Under the pieces are notes generated by a model. It was not told where the DNA came from. It saw nothing but the letters and a program-made list of their open reading frames with translations, and ran no database searches. Below are positions 17,506-41,422 of a stretch of 64,000 bases of DNA, piece by piece (position 1 is the stretch's first letter; each line of letters starts with the position of its first letter). Made by a program: the position numbers and the translations under genes. This DNA is from Bacteriovoracales bacterium. Its GTDB lineage: Bacteria > Bdellovibrionota > Bacteriovoracia > Bacteriovoracales > Bacteriovoracaceae. The DNA lies in NCBI GenBank assembly GCA_028346125.1, contig JAOMEV010000008.1, positions 1 to 64,000 on the forward strand, given 5' to 3'.

Positions 17506-18344
17506 TCTCCCCAGTCATTTACAGGAGAGGGCAAGCTTTTTGGGGGAATGTAGTTTGGGTCAGGTTTTGGTGGTGTAATATTTATATTTTCTTCTTTCGG
17601 TAGCCATTCTTCTTTCTGTTTTAGGATTCCGGGTAGAATAAGTGAATCTTCAGATACTGGCGCTAATATCTCTAGGATTTTTGATTTTTTTACTTTTTTT
17701 TCAACTTTTTCATTTTCTATAATAAAAAAAACTCTTTTATCAATTTTTTTACTAGAATCAATAACCTTGAAATTTGAAAATAAAATAAAATCGTTCAGTC
17801 TTTTTTTTATGTTAATTAAAATTCGTTTTGATAAATTTTTCATTAATGATTGGATTTCACTTGGAGTTTTATTTTCTAAAATCTCAAGCCAAGTGAAGAA
17901 TAGATTGAGAGGTAATCTTTTATTTGCCAATGATTTATCTTCAACAATATTTTTGAAATCCTTATAAAAGGCGGAAAAAAGCCATTCTGAAAAAGGTTGA
18001 AGATTAGCATTTTTGACTTTTTTTAAAAAGGTGGAATCTACTTTATCTGGATCAATATTTTTTGGTGCATTTTCTAAAGTTAGGAAATTAATAATAGTTT
18101 TATAGGTTTGAGATTTAATAATATTATATAAATCGGACTTAGTAGTTTCGGGAAAGGTTATTTCAAAGAAATCTATATTTTTTTTGAATGTTTCCTCTTC
18201 AGCTTTATTCAAAGAATAATTTTGATAAGATTTAATTAAGTAAACAAACTCGAGAGGGAGATCCTTATGAACTTTATAAGATTTGGTCTCGGCTAGGCCT
18301 ATAAAAGAAAATAGAAAAATAAGAAAGTATATTTTTTTAATCAT
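17502..18344 (-). CDS. Secreted protein of unknown function (280 aa)
   Basis: An N-terminal signal peptide (MIKKIYFLIFLFSFIGLAET) is followed by a Lys-rich helical region and a Pro-rich tail ending in PLP-type repeats (PPKPDPNYIPPKSLPSP). No family is recognised. It is the third of three secreted-protein genes behind the Fe-S oxidoreductase on the same strand, with two bases between it and the preceding gene, so an operon is likely. Confidence 0.65.
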   Translation of the reverse strand: MIKKIYFLIFLFSFIGLAETKSYKVHKDLPLEFVYLIKSYQNYSLNKAEEETFKKNIDFFEITFPETTKSDLYNIIKSQTYKTIINFLTLENAPKNIDPDKVDSTFLKKVKNANLQPFSEWLFSAFYKDFKNIVEDKSLANKRLPLNLFFTWLEILENKTPSEIQSLMKNLSKRILINIKKRLNDFILFSNFKVIDSSKKIDKRVFFIIENEKVEKKVKKSKILEILAPVSEDSLILPGILKQKEEWLPKEENINITPPKPDPNYIPPKSLPSPVNDWGD

Positions 18345-27941: not shown

Positions 27942-30900
27942 ATGAGAAGTCCTAACGAAGAACAAAAGATAGGAGTCGAACATAATGGTAATTTCTTGTT
28001 GCAAGCAGGGGCAGGCTCAGGAAAAACTTTTGTTTTAATAGAGCACGTTGTTTATAAAGTTAAGAACTTTATTTATGAAAATAAAAAGTTGGCCGAGAAA
28101 GATTTTGAAGAGGCACTTAAAAGGTATTTGTCTTCAGTTGTAATAATGACCTTCACAAAAAAAGCCGTTCGCGAGATTATAGAAAGAATAAAAGAAACAT
28201 TTGAATTAAAAAGTAAAAGTGAGGACGAATTACAAAAAAAATGGGTGATGGCCAAAGATAATATTCAATTTTTAACGGTGTCTACCATTCATGGTTTTTG
28301 TTTTAAAATTATATCACGACCTTATTTTACCTTAATACCGGTGAATATAGATATTTTAAATGAAATATCTTTTCAGAGAAAAATAGAGAGTTTGTTTAAC
28401 GATTGGTTCTTATCGATTGAAAAGAAAGGAATTAATTTTTCAAGTAATATCTATAACTCTATTTTGGTGAACTCAGAAAGTATAATCAAATCCCTTTGTT
28501 CTGTTTATGGTTCCCCAGAATTGAGACTCCTTTGGGAAAAAAATAATGACTTAAAGTTATCTAAAAAAGATTTTAAAGATTATTTTAAGGAGTTGCTACA
28601 TGCATGTGACATTGAAGATATCTTTGAATGTGATTTTAACCTAAGCGTTTACAGCGATTTTAGCAAAAAAAAGTGGTTCTCTTTTTTAAGCGATTACGAA
28701 AAAATTAAGTCCAAAGGTTATCCATCAGATTTAAATGATCTAGATGAAATATTGAAATTTTTAAATGAAAATAAGGGAGTTAGGTCTCCTGATAAAAAAC
28801 TTGATCTAAAAATCGTTAACGAAAAAATAGAAAAGATAAGAAAATTAAGAAAGTTAATAGTTGAACATTATGAAAGTTATTCTAGTTTTTTTAAAGCTGA
28901 AAAGAATGGGTCATTTTATGAATGGAAAGAGATATTAAACGATATTTTTTCTTATATTAATAAAAATTATCATCGGTATAGGGGCTATAGCTACGCTGAT
29001 ATGGAATATTATTGCTTTAAAGGATTAAAAACAAATGATTTTATAAAAATTAAAGTTAGAGAGGAATTTGATTATTTTATTTTCGATGAATTTCAAGATA
29101 CCTCTAGAATCCAATTTGATATTTTAAAAGAGATTCTAAATAACAATTTTAAAAATTTATTTTGTGTCGGTGATATTAAACAAGCAATATACGGATTTAG
29201 AGGCGGAGAACTAGAAGTATTTAGGGAGTGTGAATCAACTGTAAAAAATAATTACAAACTATTAAATAACTATAGATCTGATTCCAATATCATATATTTT
29301 AATAATAGCTTGTTCTCTTATGTATTTTCTCAAAAATTTGGTGAAGTTAGAAAATGGGAGAGTCAAAAATCACCATTTATAAAAAGTGAGGGGGTTTTAG
29401 GGAAAATAAAAACAAGTATTCAAACGACAGATACAGATAATAAAAAATTAAGTTCCTATGAAATGGATTATTTTGAATCATTAGTCATATTCGATAAAAT
29501 TGTTGAATTAAAAAATTCTGAAGATGATATATGCGTACTTTATAGAAAATTAGGTCCTTCTAGCCTTTTAATAGAGCTTTTATTGAAGGAGAATATAGGA
29601 TTTACTTCCCAGGTAAAGATTCCTTATGAGGAGGATCCTTTATTTGGGATTTTTCAGCTTCTCATTGAATCTTATTTGGAAAGAAAAACTTTGGTTAAAG
29701 ATGGAGGAAAATTAGAGACATATAAAAACTATTGTCAAATTATTTTAGATTGTTACCTAAAATATCTTGAAATTGATTATGAATTAGTTATTGATAATAT
29801 TTTTTCAAAATTTTTTAATAGTGTAAGAGATTATGGAGTATTTGAGGCCTTTAAGAGATCTATTTTTCAAATGAAACTAAGTGGTTTCAGCTCGGAAAAA
29901 TTTAAAATAATTGAAGAAATATGCCTTTCATCAAATGATAATTGTCACTTAATTTGGAAGGAGTTAACAAGGCATGGTGATAGAAAGCAGAGCTTTGAGT
30001 TTAAGAATGGGCAAAATCCTGAAAAAATTACTCTTATGACAACTCATTCGAGTAAAGGGCTGGAGTTTGGCTCAGTAATTTTAGCAGGCATTCATACAAA
30101 TGGCCGAAGTGTTTCGGATGGTTCTTTTATAGGAAAGTTGCCTGGTAGCTATAAATGGAAAGAAAATTCCATGCAGAAGAAGCCTTTTAAGTCACCCTAT
30201 TTTATTTTAGAAAACTATTTGCAAAAAAAGAGAAATTTGGAAGAAGATAAAAGGCTCTTTTATGTTGCTTGTACTAGGGCAAAGAAAAACCTCTTTTGGA
30301 CCGATTTGGAGTTCAAAGGGAATGCATTATTCAATAACGAAAAGAGCTGGATAAATTATTTAAGGAAATGGGAAGAAAACCTTATAACCAAAAAAACTGA
30401 TCAGGAATTTAATATAAGCACATATTATAGGAAGTTGGATAGGAATGAAGGGGATTTTTCTAAGAGTGAAATTCCACCTTTTTACCAACTTAATCCTTTA
30501 GGCCTTAAAGGAAGATCGCCTATAGGTAAAAAATATGGGGACAATGATGTGTCTTTAGGAGTTTTATCTGAAATTTCTGTTACTAAACTTTCATCAATCG
30601 TGAGCTGTCCAAGAAAATATTACCTTGATAATATTTGTAAGTTCGGCGAGGAAGAATTAGAAATTATAAAAAATTTAGAGGATGTAAAAGGTGTAAGTGA
30701 AAACAACTTTTTTGATGAAGAAGGGGATCGATCAAATTTACGTGTGAAAAAATCGTCAAAAAAGAGAGGAATTGATATTCATTCCAAGATTGAGAAGTAC
30801 TTCGAATTGTCCCGAATTGAAAAAGAAAGACTTTTACAAAAATTCCCCTCTATTTCTTATGCGATCAATAATATTTCAAATTACCAGGATGATTACAATT

Positions 30901-31307
30901 TAATATTTGAGCACCCTATAAAATTCTCGTTATTTAACTTTATGGTAAGTGGACAACCAGATCTTATTATGTTTCCTAAAATTGAGGGCAAAAATTTCCG
31001 GATAATTGATTTTAAAACAGGTGAAAGAAATATAAAAAATGAAGAAGTTTACTTTTTTCAATTATTTAATTACGGTTATGCATCTTTCAATTTAGGTTTC
31101 TTGGATGAAGGGGCAACCATCACTTTATCTTTGCTTTACGTTGATTCAGAAAAGGTTGTAGAAAAAGAAATATCCTATTCTAACATTGTTGACCAATTAA
31201 GTATTTATTTTAAAAAAATTTCAAATCTGCATGAGGTAAATTTAGAGCATTGTTCTATTTGCCAATATAAAAATATATGTCAAAGCAAAGTTGCACAGAT
31301 CAATTGA
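27942..31307 (+). CDS. addA: AddA-like UvrD-family helicase-nuclease
   Basis: ATP-dependent 3'-5' helicase and nuclease of the AddAB complex, which produces recombinogenic ends for RecA. Walker A AGAGSGKT is at 22-29. The DEFQDTS box is at 382-388, then GDIKQAIYGFRGG, NNYRS, TTHSSKGLEF and YVACTRAKKNL: all SF1A motifs in order. The C-terminal nuclease has GQPDLIMF and IIDFKTGE. It also carries Cys889 (SCPRKYYL) and Cys1104, Cys1107 and Cys1113, the same Fe-S pattern as its partner, which is unusual for AddA. 1121 residues is normal. Confidence 0.9.
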   Translation: MRSPNEEQKIGVEHNGNFLLQAGAGSGKTFVLIEHVVYKVKNFIYENKKLAEKDFEEALKRYLSSVVIMTFTKKAVREIIERIKETFELKSKSEDELQKKWVMAKDNIQFLTVSTIHGFCFKIISRPYFTLIPVNIDILNEISFQRKIESLFNDWFLSIEKKGINFSSNIYNSILVNSESIIKSLCSVYGSPELRLLWEKNNDLKLSKKDFKDYFKELLHACDIEDIFECDFNLSVYSDFSKKKWFSFLSDYEKIKSKGYPSDLNDLDEILKFLNENKGVRSPDKKLDLKIVNEKIEKIRKLRKLIVEHYESYSSFFKAEKNGSFYEWKEILNDIFSYINKNYHRYRGYSYADMEYYCFKGLKTNDFIKIKVREEFDYFIFDEFQDTSRIQFDILKEILNNNFKNLFCVGDIKQAIYGFRGGELEVFRECESTVKNNYKLLNNYRSDSNIIYFNNSLFSYVFSQKFGEVRKWESQKSPFIKSEGVLGKIKTSIQTTDTDNKKLSSYEMDYFESLVIFDKIVELKNSEDDICVLYRKLGPSSLLIELLLKENIGFTSQVKIPYEEDPLFGIFQLLIESYLERKTLVKDGGKLETYKNYCQIILDCYLKYLEIDYELVIDNIFSKFFNSVRDYGVFEAFKRSIFQMKLSGFSSEKFKIIEEICLSSNDNCHLIWKELTRHGDRKQSFEFKNGQNPEKITLMTTHSSKGLEFGSVILAGIHTNGRSVSDGSFIGKLPGSYKWKENSMQKKPFKSPYFILENYLQKKRNLEEDKRLFYVACTRAKKNLFWTDLEFKGNALFNNEKSWINYLRKWEENLITKKTDQEFNISTYYRKLDRNEGDFSKSEIPPFYQLNPLGLKGRSPIGKKYGDNDVSLGVLSEISVTKLSSIVSCPRKYYLDNICKFGEEELEIIKNLEDVKGVSENNFFDEEGDRSNLRVKKSSKKRGIDIHSKIEKYFELSRIEKERLLQKFPSISYAINNISNYQDDYNLIFEHPIKFSLFNFMVSGQPDLIMFPKIEGKNFRIIDFKTGERNIKNEEVYFFQLFNYGYASFNLGFLDEGATITLSLLYVDSEKVVEKEISYSNIVDQLSIYFKKISNLHEVNLEHCSICQYKNICQSKVAQIN

Positions 31308-31370
31308 TATGATAGAATGGGGAATAAAAATGGTTCAGGAAGAACCCCATGGGATAGTAGGATGCTGTTC

Positions 31371-32105
31371 ATGTCAAGATTCTTTATTCTATTTAGCGGA
31401 TATTTATTCATTTATATTTTTCCGATAGATTCTCGATCTTCGGAAGAAAACCTATATTCATTTTCTTGGTTGGATAAAGATAAAGAAGTCTATGTCTTGC
31501 AGAATAGAAAATATCGAAAAAAAAGAAGTTTTTATTTTTCAGGAGGTGCTGGAATTACAACGTCTGGCGCTTTTACTAATGCTTATTCATTTCCTATTAA
31601 TGCAGGTTATTTTTTTAAAGAAGAGTGGGGGATTGATTTAAGTTTTACAAAAAATATTGGAAAGGAAAATACTACTGCTGAATTAGTAAAAAACCCAAGT
31701 GGTGCATCGGGATCTGTTCCTTTTAGAGTATTTATAAAAAACTATATTGGAGCTCAATTACTCTGGAGTCCTTTTTATAGTAAAATAAATACATTTAATA
31801 AAATAGTGTACTTGGATTGGATGTTTGGAATAGGTGGGGCTTTTGTAAGTGAAAGTAATAATAGAAATATAGTTAATAGTTATGATGTTTCGAAAAGAAG
31901 TGTGACTGATGATAGCTTAGATGTTTCTGATAGTAGCTTTGGATTAATGTGGAGTACTGGTCTCCAATTTTACTTAAGCAAAGATTATTACTTAAAATTA
32001 GGTATGACAGCAATCCACTTTAGTACAAAAACCTCTGCAAATGGTTCTGATACAACTTTATATAATAACTATGATCTAACCTTAGGCCTAGGTTATATTT
32101 TTTAG
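31371..32105 (+). CDS. Outer-membrane beta-barrel domain protein of the Glt-like cluster
   Basis: A signal peptide is followed by alternating beta-strand segments and a terminal phenylalanine (LGLGYIF), as in small outer-membrane barrels found beside gliding/TPR genes in myxobacteria and relatives. ATG 31371 is preferred, with AGGA eight bases upstream; the frame is open from 31317 and an ATG at 31362 is also possible. In Myxococcus, GltA/GltB-type barrels hold the Glt complex to the outer membrane; the same role is inferred here. It lies 63 bases after addA and starts the six-gene operon. Confidence 0.65.
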   Translation: MSRFFILFSGYLFIYIFPIDSRSSEENLYSFSWLDKDKEVYVLQNRKYRKKRSFYFSGGAGITTSGAFTNAYSFPINAGYFFKEEWGIDLSFTKNIGKENTTAELVKNPSGASGSVPFRVFIKNYIGAQLLWSPFYSKINTFNKIVYLDWMFGIGGAFVSESNNRNIVNSYDVSKRSVTDDSLDVSDSSFGLMWSTGLQFYLSKDYYLKLGMTAIHFSTKTSANGSDTTLYNNYDLTLGLGYIF

Positions 32106-32118
32106 GAGACCATAGAAT

Positions 32119-33564
32119 ATGGCGCTATGGTATAAGTTAAAATTACTATCTATTATTTTTTTTCAGTTGATCCTCCTGGGTAATAATGTCGAAGCCTCTT
32201 TGAAAAAGGCCGAGAGATATTATGTAGAGACCGGTAAAAGTCGAAAAAATTATCTACTTATTGCCAAGAATTTGATGAAAGATGGTTATCACTTTTCAGC
32301 AGTTCCCCTGATAAAAGAGGTTCTGTTTCACCACAAAAACAAATTGAGAAGAGCATTTGATGATATTTTAGAAGAATCTATATCCAAAGTGGGAGTAAGG
32401 CAGTTTGAGTCGATGGATTTCAAAATTTTAATGAGGTCTAAAACTCCTTATGTAAGATATATAATAGCAAGAAAGCTTTTTAGGATGAAGTTGTATAAAA
32501 GGTCTCTATCTATTTTAAATTTGGATAAAATTAAAATTGATCATCCGATTAGGCCTTTCTCTTTAATGTTAAGAGGAAGTATTTTTTCTATAATGGGTAA
32601 TTATGAAAAATCAATTGATTCTTTTAAGGAGTGCGTTGAGAAATCAAAAGATGAATTAGATGATAAGGTTACAAAAAAAGAAAAAAGGCAACTATTGATA
32701 AATAAAGATATTTGCCTTCTTGGAATTTCTAGGACCTACTTTGCGAAAAAAGATTATAAAAAAGCGAGCTTTTTTTACTTGGATATAGAAAAAGAATCAT
32801 ATATATGGCCAGAAGTTTTATTCGAAGAAGCTTGGAGTAGTTTTTATCAGAGAGATTATAATAGAACATTAGGAAAATTAGTAACATATAAGGCGCCTGT
32901 TTTTTCACATATTTTTAATCCAGAGGTTAAAGTTCTTGAGGCATTAACTTATTTAGAATTGTGCCTTTGGAAAGATTCTAAAAAATCTGTTGATTTGTTT
33001 TACAAAACATTTCAGTCTCCGCTAGAAAAAATAGATAAAGTTCTTGAGACCTACGGGAAGAGATACAAACCTTATTATTTATTGGCCAAAAAAAGGCTTA
33101 AACAAGAGATAGGTGGTGGTGAAGTTTTTAATAAAATGTTTCTGTCAATTGTAAGGGACCCAGCATTTTTAGAAATGTATGATTCTTTTGATAGGGGTGG
33201 GGCAGAAATAAAAAAAATAAAAAGATTAAAAAATACAAAGTTTAAAAAGTTTTTAATAGGAAATATAAGAGAAACTTTAATTTTGCAAAGGAATTTAATA
33301 GGTGCTTACGTAAGAAAAAGTTTAGATTTCTATTCTGCAATGATTACAAAAAACTTAACAGATATGAGCTATATTAAACTAGAAGTACTTTCAAGATTAA
33401 GAAAAGAAATTCTTGATAATTCTATTACAAGTAGAAGAACTAGAGGTGATATAAAATATTTAAAAAGAAATGAAAAACAATACTTTTGGAATTTTAATGG
33501 AGAATTCTGGGCCGATGAATTAGGCGATTATGTATTTGCTTTAAAATCAGAGTGTAAAACGTGA
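32119..33564 (+). CDS. Secreted TPR-type protein of the Glt-like cluster (GltC-like?)
   Basis: A signal peptide (~26 residues ending near VEAS) is followed by 450 mostly helical residues. At least three TPR-like helical pairs are visible (around SLMLRGSIFSIMGNYEKSIDSF and LLGISRTYFAKKDYKKASFFY). It is very basic. Position and domain type resemble the periplasmic TPR proteins of the Myxococcus Glt complex, but I cannot assign a specific member. Its stop TGA overlaps the start of the next gene (TGATG), so the two are coupled. Confidence 0.65.
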   Translation: MALWYKLKLLSIIFFQLILLGNNVEASLKKAERYYVETGKSRKNYLLIAKNLMKDGYHFSAVPLIKEVLFHHKNKLRRAFDDILEESISKVGVRQFESMDFKILMRSKTPYVRYIIARKLFRMKLYKRSLSILNLDKIKIDHPIRPFSLMLRGSIFSIMGNYEKSIDSFKECVEKSKDELDDKVTKKEKRQLLINKDICLLGISRTYFAKKDYKKASFFYLDIEKESYIWPEVLFEEAWSSFYQRDYNRTLGKLVTYKAPVFSHIFNPEVKVLEALTYLELCLWKDSKKSVDLFYKTFQSPLEKIDKVLETYGKRYKPYYLLAKKRLKQEIGGGEVFNKMFLSIVRDPAFLEMYDSFDRGGAEIKKIKRLKNTKFKKFLIGNIRETLILQRNLIGAYVRKSLDFYSAMITKNLTDMSYIKLEVLSRLRKEILDNSITSRRTRGDIKYLKRNEKQYFWNFNGEFWADELGDYVFALKSECKT

Positions 33565-36443
33565 TGAAAAAAAAATATACTTATTTTATTATTTTGTTCT
33601 TTTTTTCTTCTCTTGTTTATTCAAATGATAAAGACAAAAGAAGTGAATATTTAAATATTCTTGATCAAGAAATTAATGAAATTGTTAGATTATCCAAGAG
33701 TGTCGGACGAAAAAATCCTACTGTCTTTGTAAGAATGATGTATGTTTTTATTCAAAAAGGAAAACTATTAAAAGAACAAGAAAACGAAAAGTTTTTAAGG
33801 ATATCACCAAAAAAAAGAGTAGATCTTGATAAACGGAGATTTTTTAAAAAGTCTGAGAAAAATTTTAGGAAAGCTAAAAAGATTGCCAATTTCGGTATCA
33901 GAAAATTTAAAAATTTTTCAGGGAAAGGATATTTTTTCCATGGTCTTTCTGAAGTTGCGTTGGAGCTAGGTGAGAAAAAAGGTTTTCATGAAAATATAAA
34001 AAAAGTTTTTAGGAATTCAAAAAAGGGTAGCGATATACATAAAAAATCCAGTATAACGCTAGCAGAATATTATTACAATAATAAGTCTTTTAGCAAGGCG
34101 ATTAGGTTCTATGAAAATGGTTTAAAAGGAAGAAAGGATAGATGGTGGACTAAAGACGCTTACAACCTATCCTGGTGCTACCTTTTAACGAATAATAATA
34201 AAAAGGCATTAAGGCTATTAAAACAAGTATACTATTTAAGTAAAAACCCGAACTTTATAGATGTTTCTTATCGATCTGAAAGGGAATTAGGTTATTTCTT
34301 TGTCATGGCCGGAAAGTTTTCAGATTCAATTAAATTTTATAAGGCCGGTGATGGAAAATTAGAAGAAAAATTAGTTAGAGTTTCTAAGTATTTAGTTCGA
34401 AAAGGAAAGCATACTGCTGCGGAAAAGCTTTTGGAATACGGGCTTTCTAATATTGATAAGAGGGAAAAAAAGACTAATTTAGAACTTCAAATTTTGAAAC
34501 TATACAGTAAGTTTGGTAAATATAGTAAACACTTAAAAATATCAAGAAAAGTATACAAGAAAGCTGAAAAGGACCAGCTCGATAATTATCAAATAGAAAC
34601 TTTTAAAAATGAGCTAAAACTTGTGGTTGGAATTATTCAAAAACAAGTTATTTCCAAAAGATATAGAAGAAATAAGCGTCTATTAAAAAGAAAACTATTC
34701 CAAACAATCAGGTACTTTGAATATTTGGCGCGCCTTGAGGAATCAGATTCTTATAAATGGAACTTCTTGGCCGGTGAAACTTATTTTGGGCGTAAAAATT
34801 ATAAAAAAGCACTTTTATATTATGAGAGGATATTAATTTCATTTAAAAGTTCCAAAAAAAATAAAATTGTAAAGAAGGCACTCGAAGGGTTTTTAGCATC
34901 TTTAAAAAAAGCAAAAATTGAAAATGAAAAAAAAGATTCTTTAACTATATTTGGTCTAAAAAATATTATTCTCTTTGAACCAAAGACTAAGAGAAGTAAC
35001 TTGTCACACCAAAGACTTTTCTCACTTTACTTAAAGAAGAAAAAAATAAACGAGTGTGAAAATATAATTTTTAATTATTCAAAAATTTTTAGAGGGGAAA
35101 GTAAGATTTTAGAAGAGATGATTACAAAAGTTATGAGCTTCTATAAGAGGAATGGAAACAAAAAATCATTATATTTTTGGGCACAAAAAATAAAAAATAA
35201 AGAATTTAGTGTTGGCCCTAATTTGGTAAAAAAATCTAATCTAATTCTTCTAAGTTTAAAGTTTTCTAAAGTAGAGTCGGATAATGTAAAAGGAAACAAA
35301 AAAGATGCGTTAGCAGGTTATCTAAAAATTTATAGAAATTCCAAAAATGATGCTGAAGTAAGAAAAAATAGCGCATTTAATGCAGCTGTTATATTTTATG
35401 AAGGAAAGGATTTAAGGCGGTCTTACTATTGGGTGAAAAAGGCACTTAATTTAATACGTCGGAAGGAAATATTTAAGTTTGAAAAGACGATTATATCCAT
35501 TGCAGATGAACTTTTTAATAGAAGGTATTTTAAAGAGTCATCTGATCTATATTTTTCTTCATTGAAAAAAGTCTGTTTCACAAAATCAAAAAACAAAGGT
35601 TTACTTTTAAAAAATTCAGTACTTATTTATTTGAGTAATGGATCCCATAAAAAAGCACTTGAGAGTCTAAAGTGGGGTGACCGGTGTAAGATTGATGGTG
35701 ATGCAAAAAATTTCGTTCGACTAGAATTAATTAAGTACTTTAATGAGAATAGCAAGCTGTCTGATTTAGAAAAATATTTAAATTTATTTTCCGCGAATAA
35801 AAGAATGAGACCATCTCTAATATTTTACTATGATAAGCTTAAAGCGTACCTTTTTAGGAGTGGAAGATTTGAAAAGTCGAATAGAGTAAAAAGTAAAATG
35901 TTAAATTATTATAAACAATCGAAAAAACTAGGTTATAAGATACCACTAGAAAGTCTAGAGGCCATTAGCAAAATTGTAAAAAATAATATAGATAAAAAAA
36001 TAAGTCGACTTAATAGAGTGGTTTTTAACTTTCCAGAAAATAAATTTAATAAAGTTTTGAAATATAAGCTAAAAAAATTAGATGAAATAACATCTGAATG
36101 CTTGAATTTAATGAGCTTGGGGTCTAGTTATGGTATAGTCAATGGTTATAATATTTTGATTAAAGCATATGATGATTTTATAAATGAAGTTTTAAGATTT
36201 TCTCCTAAAGGTAGAAGTAAAGAATATATTTCTTCCTTTCGTGCAAGCATGAAAAGACTGATTGGGCCATTAGAAAAAAGAGGCAGAGAATTTCGGTATG
36301 AAGCAAGGGAAAAAATATTAAAAAACTCTATATTAAGTCATGAAAATTATAAGTTACTGCTAAGCCCTCAGGATAATTTCATAAATATAAAATATTTTCC
36401 ACTAAAGGACGGAATTTTAATGGATAGGGGAGGGTTAAATTGA
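33564..36443 (+). CDS. Large secreted TPR protein of the Glt-like cluster (GltD/AgmU-like)
   Basis: 959 residues starting MKKKYTYFIILFFFSSLVYS (signal peptide), then a long array of helix pairs with TPR consensus pieces, for example AEYYYNNKSFSKAIRFYENGL and GETYFGRKNYKKALLYYERI. It is strikingly lysine-rich. In Myxococcus, GltD (AgmU) is a large periplasmic TPR protein that travels with the motility complex. The match here is in size, location and repeats, not proven homology. ATG 33564 is preferred to the GTG at 33561. The last codons overlap the next start. Confidence 0.65.
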   Translation: MKKKYTYFIILFFFSSLVYSNDKDKRSEYLNILDQEINEIVRLSKSVGRKNPTVFVRMMYVFIQKGKLLKEQENEKFLRISPKKRVDLDKRRFFKKSEKNFRKAKKIANFGIRKFKNFSGKGYFFHGLSEVALELGEKKGFHENIKKVFRNSKKGSDIHKKSSITLAEYYYNNKSFSKAIRFYENGLKGRKDRWWTKDAYNLSWCYLLTNNNKKALRLLKQVYYLSKNPNFIDVSYRSERELGYFFVMAGKFSDSIKFYKAGDGKLEEKLVRVSKYLVRKGKHTAAEKLLEYGLSNIDKREKKTNLELQILKLYSKFGKYSKHLKISRKVYKKAEKDQLDNYQIETFKNELKLVVGIIQKQVISKRYRRNKRLLKRKLFQTIRYFEYLARLEESDSYKWNFLAGETYFGRKNYKKALLYYERILISFKSSKKNKIVKKALEGFLASLKKAKIENEKKDSLTIFGLKNIILFEPKTKRSNLSHQRLFSLYLKKKKINECENIIFNYSKIFRGESKILEEMITKVMSFYKRNGNKKSLYFWAQKIKNKEFSVGPNLVKKSNLILLSLKFSKVESDNVKGNKKDALAGYLKIYRNSKNDAEVRKNSAFNAAVIFYEGKDLRRSYYWVKKALNLIRRKEIFKFEKTIISIADELFNRRYFKESSDLYFSSLKKVCFTKSKNKGLLLKNSVLIYLSNGSHKKALESLKWGDRCKIDGDAKNFVRLELIKYFNENSKLSDLEKYLNLFSANKRMRPSLIFYYDKLKAYLFRSGRFEKSNRVKSKMLNYYKQSKKLGYKIPLESLEAISKIVKNNIDKKISRLNRVVFNFPENKFNKVLKYKLKKLDEITSECLNLMSLGSSYGIVNGYNILIKAYDDFINEVLRFSPKGRSKEYISSFRASMKRLIGPLEKRGREFRYEAREKILKNSILSHENYKLLLSPQDNFINIKYFPLKDGILMDRGGLN

Positions 36444-37393
36444 AAAAGCCTTTATTGTTTTTTATTTTTTCAATTCTTCTTTTTTCATGTTCTTCTAAAA
36501 AGAAAAGATCAGTTTTAAAAAAAGTTGAAAAAAAGGATGATTACTTCATTTCTACTAAAGTTAAAAAAATAAAAAAATTTAATCCATACTCTTTAAAAAA
36601 TTTAAACTTTAAAAAATATAAAAATAAAAGATATGAAAAAGAAAACGATTATTATAAACATTCGATTTCTAACTCCAATATAGTTGGTAAAGAATCTCTA
36701 GATCTTTATACCTATTCTGAAAAAATGAAGACACTCGGCGAGATAAAAGAGCCGATAGCTGTTGCTGCTAATTATTGTTATTTAAATAGAATAGATCAAG
36801 GACTAGATGTTCTAGATAAAATTTATTTCAGCTATAAATTACAATCTAAGTATTGGAACCAAATGGCCGTTTGCTATTATTTGAAGGGAGATTACAGGAA
36901 AGCTGATATTTATTTTAATAAATCACTTTCGCTAAATAAGAATTTTGTCCCCTCAATAAATAATCTGGGTGTTTTATATAATAAAAGAAAATTTTACCAA
37001 AGAGCATTTGAAACATTTAATAAATCTTCAAAAACGAATTCTTTTTCTGTTACACCTATTTTAAATAAGGCCCAATTATTATTAAAATTTAATTTGTACC
37101 AAGCTGCCTGCCCTGTTTTCGAGACATTACATAAAGAAGATTCTTTTAATAAAGATATTGGTCATGGACTAGGAACTTGCTATCTGCTAAAGGGAGAATA
37201 CTCGAAATCATTGGCCATCTACAGGGATTTAAAAATTAATTTAAAAGATGACGAGATACCTTATGTTCATTATTTAGTAGCATTGAAATTGATGGGGAGA
37301 TACAACGAAATAAAAACCTTAATATCAAATGTAAAAGCTAACTTTAGAAGTAAATATGCAAGAAGGATATTTGATTTTGCGAGGTCGAGATGA
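36440..37393 (+). CDS. TPR lipoprotein (GltE-like)
   Basis: Lipobox LLFSC with Cys17 makes it a lipoprotein. Residues ~135-230 hold clear TPR units (MAVCYYLKGDYRKADIYFNK, then LGVLYNKRKFYQRAFETFNK). Myxococcus GltE (AglT) is a TPR lipoprotein next to GltD, so order and architecture agree. The start is a TTG at 36440 overlapping the previous TGA, backed by a very strong SD (GGGGAGGG at 36427-36434). The N-terminal 70 residues of the mature form are Lys-rich. Confidence 0.75.
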   Translation: MKKPLLFFIFSILLFSCSSKKKRSVLKKVEKKDDYFISTKVKKIKKFNPYSLKNLNFKKYKNKRYEKENDYYKHSISNSNIVGKESLDLYTYSEKMKTLGEIKEPIAVAANYCYLNRIDQGLDVLDKIYFSYKLQSKYWNQMAVCYYLKGDYRKADIYFNKSLSLNKNFVPSINNLGVLYNKRKFYQRAFETFNKSSKTNSFSVTPILNKAQLLLKFNLYQAACPVFETLHKEDSFNKDIGHGLGTCYLLKGEYSKSLAIYRDLKINLKDDEIPYVHYLVALKLMGRYNEIKTLISNVKANFRSKYARRIFDFARSR

Positions 37394-37659
37394 GTATTCT
37401 ATTAAATAAAAAGATGGCATTTTTTTTGCTTTTTTCCTTGGCCTCTTTTGTCCTCGGTAGTCAAGAAAAGGATAATGTTAGATTTCAATATAAGAAGTAT
37501 GAAAAATTTGACTTTGAAGACTTGGTTATTGAAGGTGAGACAAGTTCTCCTAGCGATTTATCTATAAAACCAAATTATAATAAAAAATTCAAAAACCTGT
37601 TGCCCTATAGGAAAAACTTTAATTCAGAAATAAAAAAATCAATAGAAAGAATTAGGTGA
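37390..37659 (+). CDS. Small secreted protein of the Glt-like cluster
   Basis: 89 residues: a signal peptide (~23, ending VLGS) then a polar chain containing FDFEDLVIEGE. ATG overlaps the preceding TGA (ATGA) with GAGG upstream, so it is translated as part of the operon. I do not recognise a family. Its conserved position between the TPR lipoprotein and the FHA protein makes a structural role in the complex likely. Checking orthologous clusters for the DLVIEGE motif would settle whether it is a defined component. Confidence 0.6.
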   Translation: MSILLNKKMAFFLLFSLASFVLGSQEKDNVRFQYKKYEKFDFEDLVIEGETSSPSDLSIKPNYNKKFKNLLPYRKNFNSEIKKSIERIR

Positions 37660-37675
37660 GTTCAATTGGTAATTT

Positions 37676-39712
37676 ATGTCGTTAATTAGTCAAAAAAAAT
37701 ATTTTGAATTAAAGTCAGATGAAGACACCAATAATGACTTTTGTTTTTTAATTAAAAAAACAAGAGTCGTTATTGGTAGTACAGAGTCGTGTGATATTAT
37801 CATACCTTTTCCTGAAGTTTCTCCTATTCATTCAATTATAGAAATAAAAGATGGTAAATTTAAAGTTTTTGATATGAATTCTGAAGGGGGTACTTTCCTA
37901 AACGGAGTTAAAATACTATCGGAAGAGTTTAAGCTTGGTGATAAATTTTCATTTTCTAGTTTTGATTTTATCTTTAAGAAATACGAAAAAATTGATTTGC
38001 CACCCATTCTTGATATGGTTGATCCGGTAAAAGATTTCTTAGAAGACCCCCCTGAGTTTGAATTAAAAGATGATAAAATCGAAGAAGATGTTAAAGAAAA
38101 AAAATCACCAAAACCATTAAGCTTAAAAAAAAGGTTCATTAAAAAAGAAATAAAAAAAGTAAAGTTTCCTCTCGATAAAGACTCTAAAGCTTCCTATAGT
38201 GAATATATCTTTGAAGATGCTGATAACTTGCTACCTATTTTTAAATATAAAAAAAATAAAATGGCCATTGAGGTTTCAGTACTACATCGAAATGAAATAT
38301 TATCGATAACTTACTTTGACTCTTCTATTCGAAAACAATTTTTGATAGGTAAATCAGGAAATAAAAAAAATGAAATTGAATTCCCGGTTTTAAACAAAAA
38401 TGATAAGCATTGTTTAGTACAAAAAAAACGAGGTAAAACTTATATTAATAGAATACCTGGATTTGACTTTTTCCATCTTAGCGATGAAAAAACAGGAAAA
38501 GTACCTAATGAGTCAGTTCATTTGGAATCTAGTGATATCGTCCGTTTGTATAAAGGTGAAATACAGGTTTTCTTGAGGTTTTCCGATTCTCCTCCTAAAG
38601 TAGATCCAGCTCCTTTCTTTTCCAAGGATAATGAGTTAAAAAAATTCAGTTTTCTTGTCTTCTTTCTTTTGTTTATTTTCTTCATTGGAATAGGTAATGT
38701 TGAGTTTAATCGTGAAATTAAAGAAGAAAAATTACCAAAGTTAGTTGCTACTATTCTCTATAGACCAAAGCCAAAACCTGTAGAGAAAAAAGTTATACAC
38801 AAAGTTGGCTCTAAAGAAATAAAAAAAACAGAAAAGTCTCCTATTGTTAAAAAAGATAAAAAATTGAAATCTGAAGTGAAAAAAGTTGAATTAAAAAAGG
38901 AATCAAATAATCAAGTCACAAAGAAAAAAGTTAAAAAAGTTATTTCCGCCAAACCTTTAAAAATTAAAAAAGGAAAAGCATCTAAAAAAAATAAAGTTAT
39001 TAAGAAGGTTAAAATAGTTGCCCCTTCGCCTCAGAAGAAAAAAATAGTTAAGTTTAAAAAATCATCTTCCAAAAGCAGGAAAACAAGAAAATCTCCAGGT
39101 AGGATAAAGGTTTATGACGCTACTAAATTTAACTTTGACTCTACTGTAAGCAAAATGCTTGCAAAAGGCGGTTCAACAAGAGTTGCTAAAGTTAAAAAAA
39201 ATAAATTAAGCGGAATCGGTTTTAGTGGTATAAAGAGCGGTGGGCAAGGTGAAAAGGTTAAAGGAGTACACTTATCCGATGATGTCGGTGATCTAGAAGG
39301 CAGTAATGATGGTGCACTAGATACAGGGAAAGGACTTGAAGGCCTTTCTAATAAAAAAGGCATTTCTTTGTCCAGCTTTCCTAGTAAGACCGTTATTTTA
39401 GGAAATTATGACCCTTCACTTATTCGGAAAATACTTGTAGATAACATGCCTCAGTTTAAGCATTGCTATCAAAGAATTTTGGATTCAAAGAGTCGATTAT
39501 TTAATGGAATTATTTGGTTTCGATTTAAAATCGGCGCCTCTGGTCGGGTTTTAAATGCAGGTATTTCTAAGCAGGAATCTAAAGTTCCTTCTCAGGTTAA
39601 AAAATGTGTTTTAAATGTTTTACGTGGAATTCAGTTTCCACCACCAAAAGGTGGTGGAATTGTAGAGGTCAATCAGCCATTGAACTTTCAAGGAAAAAAT
39701 TTAACAAGATAA
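37676..39712 (+). CDS. FHA domain-transmembrane-AgmX/PglI C-terminal domain protein (GltG/GltJ-like)
   Basis: An N-terminal FHA phosphothreonine-binding domain (VIGS at 32-35, SPIHS with His52, GTFLNG at 72-77) faces the cytoplasm. A second beta-rich domain follows (~190-315), then one membrane helix (~325-341). A Lys/Pro-rich periplasmic stretch comes next, and a TonB-C-like AgmX/PglI domain (~573-675) with HCYQRILDS and GIIWFRFKIGASGRV. This is the layout of Myxococcus GltG/GltJ, which connect the ExbB/ExbD-type motor to outer-membrane parts. It is the last gene of the plus-strand operon; its stop is four bases from the stop of the opposing ExbD gene. Confidence 0.85.
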   Translation: MSLISQKKYFELKSDEDTNNDFCFLIKKTRVVIGSTESCDIIIPFPEVSPIHSIIEIKDGKFKVFDMNSEGGTFLNGVKILSEEFKLGDKFSFSSFDFIFKKYEKIDLPPILDMVDPVKDFLEDPPEFELKDDKIEEDVKEKKSPKPLSLKKRFIKKEIKKVKFPLDKDSKASYSEYIFEDADNLLPIFKYKKNKMAIEVSVLHRNEILSITYFDSSIRKQFLIGKSGNKKNEIEFPVLNKNDKHCLVQKKRGKTYINRIPGFDFFHLSDEKTGKVPNESVHLESSDIVRLYKGEIQVFLRFSDSPPKVDPAPFFSKDNELKKFSFLVFFLLFIFFIGIGNVEFNREIKEEKLPKLVATILYRPKPKPVEKKVIHKVGSKEIKKTEKSPIVKKDKKLKSEVKKVELKKESNNQVTKKKVKKVISAKPLKIKKGKASKKNKVIKKVKIVAPSPQKKKIVKFKKSSSKSRKTRKSPGRIKVYDATKFNFDSTVSKMLAKGGSTRVAKVKKNKLSGIGFSGIKSGGQGEKVKGVHLSDDVGDLEGSNDGALDTGKGLEGLSNKKGISLSSFPSKTVILGNYDPSLIRKILVDNMPQFKHCYQRILDSKSRLFNGIIWFRFKIGASGRVLNAGISKQESKVPSQVKKCVLNVLRGIQFPPPKGGGIVEVNQPLNFQGKNLTR

Positions 39713-39716
39713 TATT

Positions 39717-40220
39717 CTAATTAAATGAATTCACAGAAAGTTTAAATTTCATAAACCCTGCGTTAGCACAAGTTTCCATCACTTTCTTGATGTCACTATA
39801 TTTAAGGCTTTTTTCTACAACTAGTGTGACTAAACCTGTAAACTTTTTCGCATCTTCTGTTGTTTGTTCAATTTGTTGGATTTGTTCTCTTTTTTTAACA
39901 AGCTCATCATAGAGTGGTAAAATTTCCTTATCTAATATTTTTTCATCCTCATTTTTAGAATCAAATATTTTTTTTTCGTCCACCCATATTGAATTTTTAG
40001 CCACTTGTACAACTATACCATTTTGACTTGGGGTAGGAGATTCTGAAAAAGGCAAAGAGATTTCTTTTGGAACAGTATAGAGCACACCTGTAGTATTGTA
40101 ATTTTTTAGCAAAAATACTAATAGTATTATAAGTATATCTAGTAAAGAAGTGATGTCCACATCAAAAGACAGCCTGTTCCTTCTAGAAAATTTCTTTTTT
40201 AATGATCTACCTGTTGACAT
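39717..40220 (-). CDS. ExbD/TolR-family stator protein (second copy)
   Basis: One membrane helix after a basic N-terminus, with VDITSLLDILIILLVFLL; Asp28 is the proton-carrying aspartate of the family. 167 residues with a periplasmic domain. With the neighbouring ExbD and ExbB it forms the AglS/AglQ/AglR-type proton-driven motor unit known from Myxococcus gliding. It is last in a three-gene minus-strand operon that converges on the FHA gene. Confidence 0.85.
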   Translation of the reverse strand: MSTGRSLKKKFSRRNRLSFDVDITSLLDILIILLVFLLKNYNTTGVLYTVPKEISLPFSESPTPSQNGIVVQVAKNSIWVDEKKIFDSKNEDEKILDKEILPLYDELVKKREQIQQIEQTTEDAKKFTGLVTLVVEKSLKYSDIKKVMETCANAGFMKFKLSVNSFN

Positions 40221-40224
40221 AAAA

Positions 40225-40755
40225 CTAACTTTTTATATTTTCGAAAATTATTTTGTTAAATAGTTCTCTAATTCTTACTTCACCATTTATTGGATCTTTT
40301 ATAAATATGGACTCATCTGTATTTCTAAAGTAACGAATATTATCCAAAATTCTTATTAACTTTTCGTAAGTAATATCAACGATAGGGTTGATTATTATAG
40401 ACTTTTCTTTTTTATTTTCTTTTTTAATTTGAACCAACTCTTTATGTAAATCTTCCACGTTGAATTTATCTTTTTCTACATTTTCAATTTTTTTCAAAAG
40501 CTTTAAAGGAGATCCAGAGTAGAGAGAAAGGCTTTGATCTTCTATTTTAAGAGTGAGACCCAATGGTATTTTTTTTGAGGGAGGTGTTTCTGTTTCTGAA
40601 ATAATAGGAATATCAATAGGTATTTCAAAAATCTTTTTTAGGTCCGAAGAAAATAATAAGAAAAAAATAAATATAAATACGGCATCTAACAAAGGTGTTA
40701 AATTCGGTTTCAATAAAATATTTTTCTTTTTTCGTCTACTAGGGGTTTTATACAT
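40225..40755 (-). CDS. ExbD/TolR-family stator protein (first copy)
   Basis: 176 residues with NLTPLLDAVFIFIFFLLF; Asp24 is the conserved helix aspartate. The periplasmic part diverges from that of the second copy, as in Myxococcus AglQ and AglS, which are both needed. It lies one base after the ExbB gene and four bases before the second ExbD, so the operon is tightly coupled. Confidence 0.85.
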   Translation of the reverse strand: MYKTPSRRKKKNILLKPNLTPLLDAVFIFIFFLLFSSDLKKIFEIPIDIPIISETETPPSKKIPLGLTLKIEDQSLSLYSGSPLKLLKKIENVEKDKFNVEDLHKELVQIKKENKKEKSIIINPIVDITYEKLIRILDNIRYFRNTDESIFIKDPINGEVRIRELFNKIIFENIKS

Positions 40756-40756
40756 C

Positions 40757-41422
40757 TTAGGCCTTGCGAGGCTTTTGCTTACTGGTTCCTAAAAAATCTA
40801 ATAACTTCACTGAGTACTCATCAATTTCGTTTACAATTTTATCTGACTTTGCACTTAAATAAGTATGTATGACCATCATTGAAATTGCGGACACTAGGCC
40901 AAGATACGTTGTATTCATTGCTTTTGATATTCCCATAGTCAGGAGTTCTGACTTTTGTGTCGGATCTGCAGCTGCTACGGCGGCAAAGGATTCTATCAGG
41001 CCTTGTATTGTTCCAAGTAGTCCTATAAGTGTAGATATATTTGAAACTAGATTTAAATAGGTTAACCTTTGCTCAATTCTTGGTATAACTTCCAAAGCTG
41101 TGGCGTCTATTGCATTTTGAATTTGTTCCACTGACTGAGCTGCTCTTTTAAGGCCACTTTTTAATACTCTCGGTAGCATGGCCTGTGTTCCTGAGCATGT
41201 GCGAATGGCCCCTTGGACATCATTTGATAAAATATATCTTTGGATTTCATTCATAAATGATGGGCCGTCCACATCAAATTTGAATGCTAGTTTTAAAAAC
41301 CTTTCAAGCGCGACAGCTATTCCGAAGCCCCATACGATCATGATGGCCCACATAAATGAGCCTCCATCATTCCAAAATATGGCCAATCTGTTGATTAGAG
41401 CATCTACTGACAGGTCACCCAT
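40757..41422 (-). CDS. MotA/TolQ/ExbB-family stator protein (AglR-like)
   Basis: 221 residues with three membrane helices (~18-36, ~130-150, ~165-190). Motifs LIGLLGTIQGLIESF and AMNTTYLGLVSAI match the TolQ/ExbB family. Together with two ExbD proteins it should form a proton channel that drives the facing Glt-like complex. ATG 41422 has AGAGG six bases upstream. The 93-base gap before it probably holds the operon promoter. Confidence 0.88.
   Translation of the reverse strand: MGDLSVDALINRLAIFWNDGGSFMWAIMIVWGFGIAVALERFLKLAFKFDVDGPSFMNEIQRYILSNDVQGAIRTCSGTQAMLPRVLKSGLKRAAQSVEQIQNAIDATALEVIPRIEQRLTYLNLVSNISTLIGLLGTIQGLIESFAAVAAADPTQKSELLTMGISKAMNTTYLGLVSAISMMVIHTYLSAKSDKIVNEIDEYSVKLLDFLGTSKQKPRKA

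Follow-up and report, generated by a model that had tools for sequence, protein, structure and literature searches.

Nine adjacent genes at positions 31371-41422 of a 64,000-nucleotide stretch of DNA from a Bacteriovoracales bacterium (contig JAOMEV010000008.1; family Bacteriovoracaceae), hereafter the window, very probably encode a machine of the Glt/Agl class, known from adventurous gliding in Myxococcus. Taken as a whole, the locus likely specifies a trans-envelope force transducer, whose likeliest job would be MglA-controlled surface gliding or the exertion of force at prey contact. By analogy with characterized relatives, the chances that its output is gliding or prey engagement are about even. 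Publications from 2010-2011 onward already describe the machine class and its occurrence in Bdellovibrio (PMC3169522, PMC2797640), so the locus is a new member of a known family; that it adds a branch to this family, and does not constitute a new kind of machine, is well supported.

All nine reading frames are open and lie where the initial annotation had placed them. The plus-strand set spans 31371-39712 and faces a minus-strand set at 41422-39717, with the ends of the two operons 4 bp apart. Consecutive plus-strand genes overlap or lie only a few base pairs apart, at 32105/32119, 33564/33561, 36443/36440, 37393/37390 and 37659/37676. The components, with the evidence for each, are as follows:

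31371..32105, plus strand: GltA/GltB-like 8-stranded outer-membrane beta-barrel (TIGR04565, PF13505, AlphaFold2 model, PDB folds)
32119..33564, plus strand: GltC-like periplasmic TPR protein, 481 amino acids (NF033756, alignment)
33561..36443, plus strand: long periplasmic helical (TPR-like) solenoid at the GltD position, 960 amino acids (HD100 profile match, AlphaFold2, Foldseek)
36440..37393, plus strand: TPR lipoprotein at the GltE position, TTG start (TPR Pfam models, HD100 profile match, lipobox)
37390..37659, plus strand: CglF/GltF small secreted protein, 89 amino acids (NF033764)
37676..39712, plus strand: GltG-like inner-membrane protein with FHA, transmembrane and AgmX parts (NF033760, NF033768, PF00498)
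39717..40220, minus strand: ExbD/TolR-like stator subunit of the AglQ/AglS type, Asp28 in the transmembrane helix (PF02472, E=4.5e-14)
40225..40755, minus strand: second ExbD/TolR-like stator subunit, Asp24 in the transmembrane helix (PF02472, E=5.6e-14)
40757..41422, minus strand: ExbB/TolQ/AglR-like stator channel subunit (PF01618, E=3.8e-25)

This layout is not a chance arrangement: every related locus examined shows the same plus-strand order, or as much of it as its contig covers. The initial annotation, which proposed just such a pair of facing operons from the sequence, is borne out by family models, structure prediction and the lipobox for the plus strand, and by Pfam matches for the stator. 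Its description of the proteins as lysine-rich applies to part of the set: the GltD-like and GltG-like proteins reach 16.7% and 17.8% lysine, against 9.9 +/- 2.8% in 30 other proteins of the window, whereas lysine is not raised in ExbB (5.4%) or the barrel (6.5%).

The likeness to the Myxococcus gliding machinery, here judged through NCBIfam models and published work, withstood profile searches against the Glt families. The GltC model NF033756 matches with E=5.3e-33 across positions 276-620 of its 622 (114.6 bits; equivalog cut-off, 450), and the C-terminus of the window's protein, NEKQYFWNFNGEFWADELGDYVFALKSEC, is almost invariant in an alignment of relatives; a search of solved structures with GltC gave no match. 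GltG matches NF033760 with E=1.7e-35 (122.7 bits; equivalog cut-off, 650). The sole family match of the small secreted protein is gliding_CglF (NF033764; E=1.5e-7, 31.3 bits, cut-off 90), CglF being identical to GltF (PMC4488436). The barrel exceeds the cut-off of 60 for TIGR04565 (OMP_myx_plus) with 85.3 bits and also matches PF13505. Its AlphaFold model has exactly 8 strands, with a predicted local distance difference test (pLDDT) score mostly of 86-98 in the barrel, and the nearest PDB folds are OmpA, OmpW, Ail and OmpX. The longest barrel reading frame begins at 31317; the ATG at 31371 adopted in the initial annotation is preferred, since it yields a signal peptide and a length as in relatives.

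The remaining two periplasmic components are assigned by their place between GltC and GltG together with profile matches to Bdellovibrio HD100. For the GltD-position protein, no match to the GltD family model was obtained and Pfam gives weak TPR signals, while AlphaFold2 predicts an all-helical rod (mean pLDDT 85) for which Foldseek returns chiefly superhelices of the TPR type, among them Ctr9, Ski3 and OGT. The GltE-position protein has TPR matches above the Pfam cut-offs and a lipobox (LLFSC17) whose Cys17 is invariant in the alignment. The GltE model NF033758 matches seven of the ten alignment members, but gives no match at E<=0.01 with the window's lipoprotein itself.

GltG combines a cytoplasmic FHA domain (PF00498, E=5.5e-13), one transmembrane segment (about residues 319-345), a lysine-rich periplasmic linker and an AgmX tail that scores above the NF033768 cut-off (58.3 bits; cut-off 40) and is weakly TonB-like. 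The position usually held by the phosphothreonine-binding Arg is Ser both here and in Halobacteriovorax marinus, which makes phospho-binding by the FHA domain doubtful. Short secreted proteins made up almost entirely of the AgmX/GltG tail domain (NF033768, sub-threshold), most of them lipoproteins, were seen in several genomes (L004:17388-17795; L006:17239-17592 and 17576-17959), directly behind gltG in two relatives, and on contig C135 of the source genome itself (L099:6494-7084); they may possibly act as motor decoys or adaptors. No second full-length AgmX-tail protein was found in the source assembly, which is 68% complete.

The stator comprises one MotA/ExbB and two ExbD proteins. As the initial annotation had noted, the aspartates Asp28 and Asp24 are kept in the ExbD helices; both are invariant among relatives. 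The channel threonines are likewise retained (GLLGTIQG, AMNTT). ExbB is 67-71% identical to its counterparts in type-1 relatives, the arrangement of the window, 45-60% identical to those in the rearranged type-2 copies described below and 31-33% identical to the HD100 stators. In a search of solved structures, ExbB matches TolQ/ExbB. Where the TolQ motif GIAEAL has Glu, the stator of the window has Lys (GISKAM). No TolA or TolB partners stand beside the window's stator. The same genome carries TolQ-TolR-TolA-TolB-like genes on contig C117 (L095) and MotAB on contig C113 (L096), both recognized from sequence and gene order; on these sequence grounds, the window's stator is distinct from the Tol-Pal and flagellar stators of the genome. 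Elsewhere in the source genome, short matches of the MotA/ExbB type occur in tandem, each in an open frame of its own (G000:C57:7939-9437 and C90:580-1172).

Comparison with Bdellovibrio bacteriovorus HD100 (G073) gives a full set of matches. Profiles built from the window's proteins and their relatives all match a single HD100 cluster at 0.78 Mb, nine of nine and in the same order, with E values of 3e-14 (barrel), 2.5e-24 (GltC), 1e-34 (GltD), 2.5e-12 (GltE), 4e-5 (GltF), 7e-26 (GltG), 1e-45 (ExbB) and 8e-9 and 6e-18 (the two ExbD). This cluster itself matches the GltC, GltE, CglF and GltG models, the CglF model NF033764 with E=3.7e-12. Glt-type stators occur in HD100 at 0.40, 0.79, 1.40 and 2.28 Mb, which agrees with the four glt clusters published, Bd0412-0420, Bd0828-0838, Bd1473-1483 and Bd2368-2377 (PMC2797640); from position, the 0.78 Mb cluster would be Bd0828-0838.

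The machine is nearly universal in the window's family. A search with the GltC profile is positive in 274 of the 291 Bdellovibrionota genomes, and 93 of the 97 genomes of the family (a total tallied by hand) carry a strong GltC orthologue (E<=1e-128), with one further orthologue truncated. The genomes that gave no GltC match are small (1.2-2.1 Mb) and belong to Bdellovibrionota families f2, f4, f5, f10 and f13; a 1.6 Mb genome of the window's own family (G196) keeps MglA and has no GltC match. Of the 11 type-1 loci whose positions were compared, nine have the stator facing gltG; in G161 and G164 it lies elsewhere. In Bacteriovorax sp. MedPE-SWde, two further proteins, one LolA-like (PF17131) and one predicted to reside in the outer membrane, are encoded between gltG and the facing stator (L007:17161-19181).

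MglA accompanies the machine. The source genome encodes MglA (G000:C6:1744-2325) with 76% identity to the H. marinus protein used as query, and a match is present in all 62 good genomes of the family. In H. marinus, the gene lies in a recR-mglB-mglA arrangement at 57 kb (G008), described for BMS_0053/0054 (PMC3983030), and HD100 has an MglA-like match at 3.61 Mb. In HD100, moreover, cells with a transposon in Bd0838 (aglS) no longer attach to, kill or round up their prey (PMC6561027). Gliding or prey engagement is favoured as the output because of this phenotype and the presence of MglA in every good family genome.

What has been observed is the set of genes, their order and homologies, the stator residues, the near-universal conservation in the family and the presence of MglA in the genome. 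How the parts assemble, transmit force and use protons, and what they achieve, is inferred from homology to M. xanthus and may be pictured as follows. Proton flow through the stator, with its single ExbB and the protonatable Asp28 and Asp24 of its two ExbD subunits, would drive cycling or rotation, and the stator would pull on GltG across the inner membrane. Force would then pass in the periplasm along the AgmX tail of GltG, GltC, the GltD rod, GltE and GltF to the outer-membrane barrel. Cytoplasmic control would probably be exerted via the FHA domain of GltG and MglA. Work on M. xanthus offers precedents for several of these steps: AglR binds GltG (PMC3169522), GltA, GltB and GltC bind one another (PMC4488436), and an aglQ D28N substitution stops motility and sporulation (PMC3858216).

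Several points weigh against the proposed machine or its output. The initial annotation had called the motor complete, which is too strong a word: the set corresponds to what Luciano et al. (2011) termed the expanded core complex, with GltC, D, E, F and G and an AglRQS-type stator present. GltH, GltI, GltJ and GltK, which M. xanthus requires, were not seen in the locus (dedicated models for GltH, I and K were not part of the search), and in place of a GltA and GltB pair there is one barrel, both in the locus and in the source assembly; the incompleteness of that assembly itself counts here. H. marinus likewise has one barrel per locus. The GltC, GltG and CglF scores fall below the NCBIfam equivalog cut-offs. 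One-to-one orthology to Bd0828-0838, favoured by most gene scores, is contradicted by the tree discussed below. The source organism is uncultured, and no gliding test of any Bacteriovoracaceae was found in the literature searched. Finally, paralogues of the machine do other jobs: in M. xanthus, Nfs, a paralogue of GltA-H, rotates the spore-coat glycan by means of AglRQS, moving a polymer (PMC3858216).

That last case is the model for the main rival on output, in which the same class of machine would move or compact a surface polysaccharide or remodel the envelope, for example during intraprey growth or the formation of resting cells, and would not move the cell. NfsA-H also comes without I, J and K, none of which was seen in the locus of the window. 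The four HD100 operons also differ in their induction: host-independent growth switches on three of the four, and the early phase of predation one (PMC2797640), which makes it probable that the copies differ in job. An Nfs-like role is possible but rather unlikely here, given that every good genome of the family retains MglA as well, that the operon holds no polysaccharide export genes and that one HD100 copy is required for prey attachment (PMC6561027). Another reading takes the stator and GltG tail as a TonB/Tol-like energizer of outer-membrane uptake, secretion or constriction, with the TPR proteins as a scaffold. Pfam and NCBIfam do place the stator in ExbB/ExbD/TolQR, the GltG tail resembles TonB weakly, and in two relatives gltG is followed by separate lipoproteins with an AgmX tail. 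Nevertheless, the genome has its separate TolQRAB set, the locus holds no TonB-dependent receptor, an 8-strand barrel of OmpA size is too small for TonB-type transport, and the families matched by GltC, GltF and GltG are particular to gliding machineries, all of which render an energizer improbable. A decayed or unused copy is scarcely credible despite the strong divergence and the Ser in the FHA domain, because nine frames are open, the Asp residues of the stator do not vary and the C-terminus of GltC hardly does, the locus is near-universal in the family, and the Ser, being shared with H. marinus, is not recent decay.

The Glt/Agl-class machine of the window probably has a history of duplication. 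In many relatives a further copy with a different gene arrangement (type 2) is present, as seen in H. marinus, G132 and the congener G264, which has the type-2 copy only. Type-2 copies (for example, L076, L078 and L090) contain all nine components, as in the window, but in the order barrel-GltC-GltF-ExbB-ExbD-ExbD-GltD-GltE-GltG on one strand, with the stator inside the cluster. A tree of concatenated GltC, GltG and stator proteins places types 1 and 2 together (100/100) and the HD100 copies apart, although its branches are long, its root was not inferred and the groups tested were defined with the tree already in view. On the same concatenated data, a clade of type 1 with the HD100 0.78 Mb cluster was rejected (approximately unbiased test, p-AU 8e-112). 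Because the two types form a clade apart from the HD100 copies, the sequences suggest that the machine probably multiplied separately in the Bacteriovoracaceae and Bdellovibrio lineages. It is doubtful that this independent expansion in the Bacteriovoracaceae yielded two specialized motors, of which the near-universal one would be a dedicated engine for gripping or entering prey and not for gliding.

Two flanking genes lie outside the proposed machine, supported by synteny and, as an AddB/AddA-like pair, by PF12705, PF00580 and, below cut-off, TIGR02785:

25484..27934, plus strand: AddB-like gene
27942..31307, plus strand: AddA/RecB-like gene

In every type-1 locus examined (the window, L002-L007, L075, L077, L079-L081 and L092-L094), the glt genes directly follow such recombination nuclease-helicase genes; in the window, 63 bp separate the end of the AddA-like gene from the barrel ATG. 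Downstream of the type-1 stator, where the stretch reaches that far, lies gmhA, in some loci with trx as well. A promoter scan found fewer sites than in shuffled sequence and was uninformative.

A 2026 review (PMC13104615) still regarded the gliding motor of Bdellovibrio as unidentified, although descriptions of Glt/Agl clusters in that genus go back to 2010-2011. In contrast to HD100 with its four stator-bearing clusters, many Bacteriovoracaceae genomes have only one or two copies, and the main copy occupies a fixed locus in nearly all family members, including one whose genome matches cultured H. marinus SJ. Few copies at a fixed position make single-gene tests of cell movement versus prey engagement more direct. 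The value of the locus thus lies in providing a simple, family-wide site at which the open question of motility and prey contact can be tested.

Among known systems, HD100 Bd0828-0838 shares with the window the order barrel-GltC-GltD-GltE-CglF-GltG plus ExbB-ExbD-ExbD. It differs in that two barrels stand side by side and the stator runs in the same direction as the other genes, where the window has one barrel and a facing stator, and protein identity is mostly 14-33%. The Agl-Glt machinery of M. xanthus (AglRQS, GltA-K) has counterparts in the window for GltA/B, GltC-G, AglR, AglQ and AglS, and the D-E-F-G order is shared. However, M. xanthus has a mutually stabilizing GltA and GltB pair, a GltC of about 673 amino acids and genes in three clusters, whereas the window has one barrel, a shorter GltC and a single locus. 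Nfs (NfsA-H) shows the same component types in one region, but borrows the AglRQS stator, whereas the stator of the window adjoins its partners. TolQR-TolA and ExbBD-TonB share the stator subunit families and a TonB-like tail with the window; they are set apart by the TolQRAB genes elsewhere in the genome and by the TolQ motif, GIAEAL, for which the window has GISKAM.

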